Below, piece by piece: positions 1 to 2,521 of a stretch of DNA of 31,493 nucleotides (within the stretch, counting starts at the first letter, position 1; each line of letters begins with the position of its first letter). The notes under the pieces were generated by a model, which made no database searches, had not been told where the DNA came from, and saw only the letters and a list, made by a program, of their open reading frames with translations. Source of the stretch: a virus; the IMG/VR virus record IMGVR_UViG_3300047299_000026, positions 1 to 31,493 of that record; one strand, given 5' to 3'. Position numbers and translations under genes: made by a program.

Positions 1-277
1 TCATTGCAGAACTGTATTGGTCAGCAAGTTCTTTATCAGTACTTGCTACGCATACAACCAAGGCTTTGTTAATCTTTAGATTACGTGTGTTGGCAGGATT
101 AACTGTCATCAAGTAAGGAGTAAGTGCCGGACCACCTTTAGGACCTACACTTAGCGTCACTGGACGATCAATAGTGTAAGTTGCACTATCATCTTCTTTG
201 TAAGTACCAATAAGTTCTTCACCTGAACTCATCTTAAGAGTTACTACATCACCATCTCGTTTTACGTCGATTAACAT
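1..277 (-). CDS. Sm-like (LSm/Hfq-fold) small phage protein, 3' end cut by window edge
   Basis: The start codon is ATG at 277, preceded by a good Shine-Dalgarno (AAGGA about 7 nt upstream). About 92 codons are visible before the left edge, so the C-terminus is missing. The N-terminus alternates short beta strands (MLIDVKRDGDVVTLKM, then SGEELIGTYKE, then TYTIDRPVTL), the pattern expected of an Sm-like barrel in which a strand is followed by a SGEELIG turn. Small proteins of this look occur in T4-like marine phages, but no function is established to my knowledge. It is the last visible gene of the exonuclease-nrdA-nrdB operon. The fold call is inference from pattern; a generic small beta-barrel is the alternative. 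Confidence 0.6.
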   Translation of the reverse strand, partial: MLIDVKRDGDVVTLKMSSGEELIGTYKEDDSATYTIDRPVTLSVGPKGGPALTPYLMTVNPANTRNLKINKALVVCVASTDKELADQYSSAM

Positions 278-285
278 TTTTTTCC

Positions 286-314
286 TTATAGTTTAAATCC
301 AGCAAAGGTATCTT
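286..314 (-). repeat. Direct repeat copy A of the nrdB 3' end
   Basis: This 29-nt block matches 1424-1452 at 27 of 29 positions. It encodes the last codons (DTFAGFKL plus stop) of the 136-residue ORF. Directly after its stop codon comes the Shine-Dalgarno of the Sm-like gene, so deleting the 1138 bp between the two copies would leave an intact nrdB reading straight into that gene. Confidence 0.85.
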
Positions 315-696
315 CATATATAACCTTCTCATTATAATTTATCTGATTGCAATTGCTATAAACATCCGTAAACAAGCGATCATTCCCCCAAACAAAGACA
401 TTATGAGTACGGTCGTCGTCAACTGGTGTAATGTCAATTATGCCATTATTATTCCATACACTATGCTTAATTGCTATCCACTTGTCTTCGCTAGCACTTA
501 CAGCCATATAATATCCTGTTAACTTTTTGCCGCCATACATTGCAACATATAATTCAACATTGGCATGGCAACGATTGACACGGGTGTGCGGCTTCTGTAC
601 AATTGGAACAACCGCTACATTGTTACATCCTAAAATATCCATAGCAGATTTCAATCTAGGATCATTACGGGCAGGTAATGTGGCATCACATATCAT
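286..696 (-). CDS. Unknown 136-residue protein ending in an NrdB-type C-terminal tail
   Basis: I do not recognise a characterised family. The middle holds a conserved-looking core (NRCHANVELYV, YGGKKLTGYYMAV, IKHSVWNNNG, IDITP) like small phage proteins whose Cys-His and HSVW motifs recur, but the function is unknown. The last eight residues, DTFAGFKL, are identical to the C-terminus of NrdB encoded 1.1 kb upstream, and the DNA is nearly identical too. In class Ia ribonucleotide reductases the C-terminal peptide of the small subunit docks on NrdA, so this protein could in principle bind NrdA. The start at 696 overlaps the end of the homing endonuclease gene by 11 nt, which suggests translational coupling. 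The tail may instead be a by-product of endonuclease-gene insertion. Confidence 0.75.
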   Translation of the reverse strand: MICDATLPARNDPRLKSAMDILGCNNVAVVPIVQKPHTRVNRCHANVELYVAMYGGKKLTGYYMAVSASEDKWIAIKHSVWNNNGIIDITPVDDDRTHNVFVWGNDRLFTDVYSNCNQINYNEKVIYEDTFAGFKL

Positions 697-1378
697 GTTT
701 TATTTGCCAACCTGCGGCTGTGCCTCGATTGGGGATCCTGTGTTCTGCATAAGCGGCATGCATAGTAGCATAGCTGAGTCCAAGCTCTTTGCATTTTGCA
801 CGTAGATTTCCGTGTGCATAATGTTCTACTCCTGCAGGGTCAGTTAGTATCCAATTTTTCGCCTTAGGATTGTTGGCCCCGGCTAGCTTACCTTTATTTG
901 CTTGGCCTATTTTATTTTTTGTAGCTTGACTATGCGAGCAATCTCTATTGGCATGTGCATTTATTACACTTTCTCTTATTTTTGACTTAGTGGCCTCAGT
1001 ATGAGTAGTTGGCCCAAATCCACCTCTTGAAAGTTGCAATTTTCTAAAATGCTCAATGCGGTTAGCGGATCGATCACCGTATAGTTCTTTATAAGTTTTT
1101 CCCTTGTGATTAGGAGGAAGGCCGCCTCCAGGTGTTAAGTTATAACCATTTGGTACCATAGTATTGTGCTGTTGTATATACATGTCTTCATTTATTACAC
1201 TATCCTCTGCTATGATTTCAAATGTAATATGTTCAATACCATATTTCTTTATAGCCTGATAAACCAACTTACTTCCTTTGCCAGTTTTATGATCATTCCA
1301 TCTGCACTCTACGTTATCAGAATATCCTATGTACGATTTGCTGTTTACTTGATTAGTAATTTTATATATGTGTCCCAT
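686..1378 (-). CDS. GIY-YIG homing endonuclease, free-standing
   Basis: The N-terminal nuclease domain (residues about 1-90) has the GIY-YIG signature as HIYKIT (3-8) and SYIG (15-18), the conserved Arg26, a candidate catalytic Glu64, and the YNLTPGG stretch at 79-85 typical of Seg and I-Tev enzymes. The C-terminal half has repeated NUMOD3-like segments (HTEATKSKI, HSQATKNKI) and a GANNPKAKNW plus helix-turn-helix-like region for DNA recognition. Such enzymes cut an allele lacking the insertion and spread their own gene by repair. It sits directly downstream of nrdB, a gene that hosts the GIY-YIG enzyme I-TevIII in an intron in T4; here no intron is seen. It has its own late promoter box 5 nt before the ATG and no Shine-Dalgarno, so it is probably made late, unlike the early nrd genes. 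Confidence 0.92.
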   Translation of the reverse strand: MGHIYKITNQVNSKSYIGYSDNVECRWNDHKTGKGSKLVYQAIKKYGIEHITFEIIAEDSVINEDMYIQQHNTMVPNGYNLTPGGGLPPNHKGKTYKELYGDRSANRIEHFRKLQLSRGGFGPTTHTEATKSKIRESVINAHANRDCSHSQATKNKIGQANKGKLAGANNPKAKNWILTDPAGVEHYAHGNLRAKCKELGLSYATMHAAYAEHRIPNRGTAAGWQIKHDM

Positions 1379-1383
1379 GCACT

Positions 1384-1391
1384 TATTTATA
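1384..1391 (-). promoter_or_regulatory. T4-like late promoter box TATAAATA
   Basis: An exact T4 late box, TATAAATA, reads on the minus strand and is followed by 5 nt (AGTGC) and the ATG of the homing endonuclease. With T4 geometry the first transcribed base would be the A of the start codon, giving a leaderless mRNA. Confidence 0.75.
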
Positions 1392-1423
1392 TAAGAGACA
1401 CATATTGATACACATATAGTCTA

Positions 1424-1452
1424 TTAGAGTTTAAATCCAGCAAAAGTATCTT
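1424..1452 (-). repeat. Direct repeat copy B: 3' end of nrdB
   Basis: Second copy of the 29-nt block at 286-314 (27 of 29 identical). It encodes the genuine NrdB C-terminus DTFAGFKL and stop. The copies diverge abruptly on both sides. Confidence 0.85.
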
Positions 1453-2521
1453 TGCTTACGTCTTGTTTAATACCACCAATAACATAACTTTGAATCTGCG
1501 TTTGCTGTGGTGCTACTTGCAGTCCTTTACTGCTTGTCCAATGATCAGTCCACGGCAAAGGATTGTCATTTGCGCTACGTTCGTAACGTGTTTCTACGCC
1601 AAGGCCTTTAAGGCGTTTGTTGGCAATGTGTTCAACATACTGGTGCAATAGCTTTGCGTTAAGGCCAACGATGGCGCCACGACTAAACAAATAGTCAGCC
1701 CATTCTTTTTCTTCAGCTACAACTAAATCATAGATAGCACCAATCTCGCCAATTAGCTCATTGGCAATTTCTTGCATCTCTGGATCGTCACCTTTAAACC
1801 AGTTCTTGATAATGTGTGTTGTAATGCTTAGGTGTTGGCTTTCGTCTCGAGCAATAAGACTGATAATCTTTGCCGAGCCTTCCATCTTCTTTAGTTCGCC
1901 AAACGCAAATGAGCAAGCAAACGACACATAAAAGCGAAGTGCTTCAAGTGCATTAACATTGACCATTGCTAGAAACAACTTCTTCTTGACTGCTCGCAAG
2001 GTGCCTTTGCCAGAATAGAAATACTCATTAGCTACCTGAATGAACTCATCATATGCTTTGGTCACACTCTTGGCACGAGCAATAATCTTTTCATCATCAA
2101 GCAAGGTATCAAACACTTCACTTGGGTTCGAGTAGATGTTCTTGATAATGTGCGTGTAACTGCGACTATGAATGTTTTCAAAGAACTGCCAGGTGTTCAT
2201 GCAACCTTCAAGCTCGGGTAGAGAGCAGAATGGCATGAACGCCATAGCTGGGCCACGTCCTTGTACGCTGTCCAGTAAAATTTGATACTTTAGGTTAGCA
2301 GTAAAGATAAACTTTTGTTCATCACGAAAGTCAAGATAATCACTGCGATCCTTTTGCAATGATACTTCTTCTGGACGCCAAAAGTATCCAAGTTGAGTTT
2401 GCGTTAGCTTATCAAACACTGGATACTTAAAAGTGTCAAATCGTTGGGCATTGAGTGCTTCACCAAAAAACATAGGTTGTTTGGTGAAGTCTACTTTGCC
2501 CTGATTAAAAACTGTTGTCAC
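1424..2521 (-). CDS. nrdB: Ribonucleotide reductase class Ia, small (beta) subunit
   Basis: It makes the diiron-tyrosyl radical that drives reduction of ribonucleotides to deoxyribonucleotides together with NrdA. All expected residues are present, partly with E. coli numbering: iron ligands D84 (LLDS), E115, H118 (ENIHSRSY), E193 (NALEA), E227 and H230 (RDESQH), and radical Tyr122. Length, 365 residues, is normal. The C-terminal tail ends DTFAGFKL, the part that docks on NrdA in this class. The start is GTG at 2521 with AAGGA about 10 nt upstream, and the gap to nrdA is only 12 nt, so the two are co-transcribed. There is no sign of an intron or frameshift. The odd point is the duplicated 3' end (see 286-314). 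Confidence 0.98.
   Translation of the reverse strand: MTTVFNQGKVDFTKQPMFFGEALNAQRFDTFKYPVFDKLTQTQLGYFWRPEEVSLQKDRSDYLDFRDEQKFIFTANLKYQILLDSVQGRGPAMAFMPFCSLPELEGCMNTWQFFENIHSRSYTHIIKNIYSNPSEVFDTLLDDEKIIARAKSVTKAYDEFIQVANEYFYSGKGTLRAVKKKLFLAMVNVNALEALRFYVSFACSFAFGELKKMEGSAKIISLIARDESQHLSITTHIIKNWFKGDDPEMQEIANELIGEIGAIYDLVVAEEKEWADYLFSRGAIVGLNAKLLHQYVEHIANKRLKGLGVETRYERSANDNPLPWTDHWTSSKGLQVAPQQTQIQSYVIGGIKQDVSKDTFAGFKL

Follow-up and report, generated by a model that had tools for sequence, protein, structure and literature searches.

A putative homing-endonuclease cassette at the 3' end of phage nrdB and the displaced native gene end

Two copies of the nrdB 3' end in one locus

The locus studied here raises the question of how two different phage proteins have come to share one C-terminus. 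In the window, which is the whole stretch of 31,493 nucleotides analysed (IMG/VR record IMGVR_UViG_3300047299_000026, positions 1 to 31,493), the gene nrdB (1424..2521, minus strand), encoding the 365-aa small subunit of class I ribonucleotide reductase (Pfam Ribonuc_red_sm, 3.4e-49; phrog_86, 1.6e-151), and an open reading frame of 136 aa (ORF136; 286..696, minus strand) both end in DTFAGFKL*. Indeed, a 29-nt block is present twice on the minus strand, at 286-314 (copy A, the end of ORF136) and at 1424-1452 (copy B, the end of nrdB), with 27 of the 29 positions identical, a spacing of 1138 and the repeat in frame in both genes. Chance matches to this block, allowing up to three mismatches, numbered zero in 100 dinucleotide shuffles. 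Between the copies lie ORF136 and a gene for a GIY-YIG homing endonuclease with NUMOD3 (686..1378, minus strand, 230 aa), which overlap by 11 bp; the assignment of the latter is given by Pfam GIY-YIG (3.8e-10, 40.4 bits against a curated cut-off of 22.6), NUMOD3 (1.8e-4) and phrog_314, homing endonuclease (4e-29).

Downstream of ORF136 stands a gene that runs off the window (2..277, minus strand); it had been labelled Sm-like in the initial annotation, and its sole match is phrog_527 (function unknown; 3.8e-10). A Shine-Dalgarno-like AAGGA (283..287, minus strand) overlaps the stop codon of copy A and sits upstream of the ATG of this gene, whereas inspection of the sequence after the stop codon of copy B found nothing resembling it. 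Hence the repeat, the two genes between its copies and the ribosome-binding site at copy A only, all reported in the initial annotation, are borne out. A group I intron was considered for the insert and rejected, as both reading frames are complete and the window gave no Rfam match to a group I intron core at the gathering score.

Relatives with and without the insert

The layout of the window is shared by four IMG/VR contigs from other metagenomes (L001-L004, ~83% identity), and both repeat copies are visible in three of the four. This bears on the possibility, raised earlier, that the repeat is an assembly error. Such an artefact has nothing in its favour except that a short repeat exists, and since relatives from other metagenomes share the layout, with both copies on the separate contigs L002-L004, it was rejected, its probability being negligible. 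In another set of relatives (L006-L010; NrdB 93-96% identical) the insert is absent: the endonuclease gene and ORF136 are missing together and nrdB lies directly before the next gene, as had been predicted for phages without the endonuclease. The junction sequence of these empty sites, the same in L006 and L009, is that found at copy A, and AAGGA is kept at their nrdB ends. Furthermore, copy A is identical to the nrdB end of the empty L009 at 29 of 29 positions, and the scar of L001 matches the nrdB end of the empty L007 equally well (29/29). Since the empty-site junction equals that of copy A, copy A is, on this comparison, the native nrdB end, in agreement with the initial annotation. Copy B differs from copy A and from the empty-site nrdB ends by two synonymous changes only and, given its shortness, does not suffice as proof of a foreign origin.

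In the nrdB tree, which was built without the last 90 nt of the gene, the window is nested with starred support inside a group of empty phages, apart from L002 and L003. The filled loci do not form one clade, and a minimum of two changes has to be assumed for the filled state. Because the window nests among empty relatives, the insert is, as far as the tree tells, optional or mobile; gain and loss of the insert are not separable, since an exact deletion running from one repeat to the other could leave an empty site as well.

The reading that we consider probable is that the 3' end of nrdB received a homing-endonuclease cassette, which brought its own nrdB end and displaced the native one. The mobile cassette would comprise a replacement nrdB 3' end, the GIY-YIG endonuclease gene and ORF136. 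The endonuclease would cut the nrdB 3' end, and repair of the double-strand break would copy in the cassette together with the nrdB end that it carries. After its arrival nrdB would be complete through the end supplied by the cassette, copy B, while the native end, copy A, and the ribosome-binding site of the next gene would have been pushed 1.1 kb downstream. ORF136 would then read in frame into copy A and gain the NrdB tail as a by-product. Most likely this tail is scar read-through, for which docking on NrdA is not required, and the repeat has the look of an insertion scar of a recurring kind, not of a decoy shaped by evolution.

The features on which this reading draws are the empty sites, the identity of copy A with the empty-site nrdB end, the patchy presence of the insert and displaced ends in several frames. 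Indeed, the cassette is argued for by the copy A junction of the empty relatives, whose nrdB ends match the scars at all 29 positions, and by the tree, in which filled loci are scattered and the window lies among empties. Counted against it are family members without a detectable scar, eight examined members without an adjoining endonuclease, the possible origin of empty sites by exact deletion and the shortness of copy B. Endonuclease-linked insertion with duplication of the tail, one of two readings put forward in the initial annotation, is thus supported by the empty L006-L010 and the native copy A.

Displaced nrdB ends across the ORF136 family

The family of ORF136 was drawn out by a scan of viral contigs for the motif CHxNVxxxVxxxGG, and comprises at least ~70 distinct proteins. 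A mis-spaced pattern used as control gave 9 matches compared to at least 120 for the correct pattern, and a single motif match in genome contigs was rejected since a stop lies inside the motif. Among the matches listed, nearly all members are found directly downstream of nrdB and the family gene usually stands behind a GIY-YIG gene. The element between nrdB and the family gene is variable, being a GIY-YIG-like protein, a DUF723-containing protein or none detected. In L170 (5876-7498) a long DUF723-repeat protein adjoining nrdB has the family domain fused at its C-terminus, a layout also seen in L154 and L186, and this fusion protein looks like another kind of homing endonuclease. No endonuclease was detected beside the family gene in eight examined contigs (L168, L183, L104, L175, L176, L177, L190 and L207).

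A different order of events would have the endonuclease invade an existing nrdB-ORF136 pair, the repeat arising later by recombination between the 3' ends. Such a pair would be in keeping with L168, L183, L104 and L176, where the family gene adjoins nrdB with no endonuclease present, and with the varying kinds of endonuclease between lineages beside a constant family gene. However, the close relatives L006-L010 lack both genes together, and the scars are distal to the family gene, bracketing it and the endonuclease; we hold this order of events to be very unlikely.

At or just past the family gene, a displaced nrdB end was found in 36 of the 69 distinct 3' regions among the matches listed, above every reversed-sequence control, and this recurrence is a further argument for the cassette. 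The displaced ends are 29-85 nt long. Five junction types are in the frame of the family gene (the window clade, L149, L147, L175 and, weakly, L133) and five are out of frame (a large clade at +37, L155/L198, L141, L200 and L101). By chance one third would be in frame, and there is no clear in-frame excess, because five or more of ten has a probability of ~0.21. Most family members end without an NrdB tail (among the matches listed), and several that carry the family gene have no detectable scar. For the tailed members, the further copies found were identical ones only.

In members of the large clade, the stop codon of the family gene is part of a TAATG whose ATG lies in the displaced nrdB end. 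From this ATG the next gene starts in the +1 frame, its N-terminus being encoded by the displaced end as well (MLPKILSQDSNYDEW... in L111, 3368-3530; MSQKIPSQDSS... in L192, 8478-8650). The view of these scars as untranslated debris was rejected, since they hold the start codon of the next gene. In L012 and L017, which have no insert, the +1 frame of the nrdB 3' end likewise contains the start of a glutaredoxin-like gene. Where genes abut so tightly, a second copy may be required for both to survive an insertion intact.

The other reading of the initial annotation was that the tail is selected, ORF136 docking on NrdA via an NrdB-type C-terminus as a decoy or recruiter, and modulating, recruiting or modifying ribonucleotide reductase. 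In mammals, R1 can be inhibited by short R2 tails (PMC3483043), which speaks for docking. The near-constant position of the family gene beside nrdB among the matches listed is in line with it, and so are the NrdB-like in-frame tails of up to five junction types, that of L149 having 26 residues, and the tail amino acids, which are unchanged between the window and L002 although dS is ~1. However, the tail of the window has only ~9 residues, the in-frame case of L133 is weak, most family members among the matches listed have no tail, the displaced end is out of frame in five of the ten junction types, and the largest clade uses it in a different frame to start the next gene. Moreover, nrdB alleles of empty phages, on which selection acts in any case, could refresh copy A. 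Relatives that carry the gene with neither tail nor repeat, which had been named beforehand as speaking against a decoy, were found as well (L168, L183, L104 and L176). Selection of the tail for NrdA docking is hence left unsupported and is unlikely, though a weak docking may occur. It is likewise improbable that the family is an effector of ribonucleotide reductase, perhaps a Cys-His-Asp enzyme, which would repeatedly capture the NrdB C-terminus from scars and dock on NrdA.

The endonuclease gene and its start region

The endonucleases found at the nrdB 3' end (L111, L122, L130, L149 and 686-1378 of the window) have a C-terminal region with NUMOD3 in common while their catalytic halves are different, which suggests swapping of nuclease domains on one DNA-binding module. 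Exchange of nuclease ends on a common DNA-binding end would fit a single shared target, the nrdB 3' end, and this also favours the cassette. In the window, the start codon of the endonuclease gene is enclosed by a hairpin (1366..1405, minus strand; RNA fold z -2.6, and z -4.5 in L002), within which lies the late-promoter-like motif TATAAATA (1384-1391, minus strand), an ATAAATA-type motif conserved upstream of related genes. The presence of a T4-like late-promoter motif and a start-codon hairpin adds to the case for the cassette. Both features recall the way in which T4 intron endonucleases are restricted to late expression, and by analogy the endonuclease would be expressed late only.

Comparison with known systems

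The T4-like free-standing GIY-YIG endonucleases (Seg family; I-TevI logic) have in common with the present one the GIY-YIG domain, NUMOD3, a TATAAATA-type motif, the start-codon hairpin and a position adjoining an essential gene. As expected of a free-standing endonuclease, the gene is optional at one site among close relatives. Free-standing endonucleases, mobE between nrdA and nrdB among them, are treated in a review of T4, but the displacement or duplication of a gene end, which is present here, is not mentioned there (PMC2988022).

The nearest phage concept is that of the HEG-islands beside ribonucleotide reductase genes. These are defined by at least two flanking endonucleases around a large cargo, and, as in our loci, interchangeable homing endonucleases with cargo are found beside ribonucleotide reductase genes (PMC10448857). 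In contrast, a single endonuclease stands here between nrdB and ORF136, and the insert between nrdB and the next gene consists of one endonuclease and one small gene. In the part of the literature covered by our search, no phage reports of displaced gene ends were found.

The same anatomy is seen in fungal mitochondria, which also argues for the cassette. Mobile endonuclease ORFs (mORFs) of mitochondria have been described for atp6 of Allomyces and Glomus, atp9, cox2 and nad3 of Glomus, cox2 of Phlebia and rps3 of Ophiostoma, and in Glomus atp6 the duplicated gene end lies ~1 kb downstream (PMC3630166, PMC4019555). In both settings an essential gene has an endonuclease ORF at its 3' end and a duplicate of its own end ~1 kb downstream, and it is this downstream copy that agrees with insert-free relatives (PMC3630166, PMC4019555); a second gene end beyond the endonuclease ORF, its distal copy matching insert-free relatives, is thus found here as well. 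Unlike the mORFs, the present loci are those of phages and include a conserved extra gene. Their displaced end, of 29-85 nt, is short, and it supplies either the tail of the extra gene or, through the +1 frame, the beginning of the next gene. An insertion process described for fungal mitochondrial genes, in which the gene end is replaced and the native end displaced, would thereby be carried into phages. Dozens of related loci show the fates of the displaced end, which is kept as a scar, becomes the tail of a neighbour or provides the start of the next gene in another frame; this offers a concrete route by which selfish DNA could make new protein ends.

The ORF136 protein

The analysis also exposes the ORF136 family, which is undescribed and tied to phage ribonucleotide reductase. 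No relatives of ORF136 were found in Pfam, NCBIfam or the PDB, tblastn against annotated phages gave no match, and a tblastn-type search with two other family members retrieved only an unannotated fecal phage. Among viral proteins, the best match of ORF136 carries the annotation of a GIY-YIG domain (E 6e-7). Of the 42 aligned members, 38 match phrog_37148 (function unknown; best 1.9e-11), while the window's own ORF136 does not match it at E 0.1. PADLOC matches (PD-Lambda, 0.008) were set aside as too weak.

In the 42-sequence family alignment C43, H44, N46, H78, D88 and D94 are invariant. With this alignment, the AlphaFold2 model of ORF136 has a mean pLDDT of 89, the tail (126-136) being below 50 and disordered; with five near-identical sequences instead, the pLDDT is 32. 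The predicted fold places the Cys at the start of a helix and then the His and the Asp on strands. C43, H78 and D88 follow in papain-like order, and the modelled layout resembles that of papain-like hydrolases. Comparison of folds did not back this resemblance: Foldseek of the model against the PDB returned nothing credible, and with VIA-align the best Z was 3.7, PeiW scoring 2.1. Between the window and L002, dN/dS is 0.09 for ORF136, 0.12 for the endonuclease and 0.06 for nrdB; judged by these ratios, the ORF136 gene is under constraint. A diverged member (CHSNV...EFHSVW...DITP) was also observed in L169 (2302-2970), on a contig with no nrd match, and it hints at relatives outside the nrd setting.
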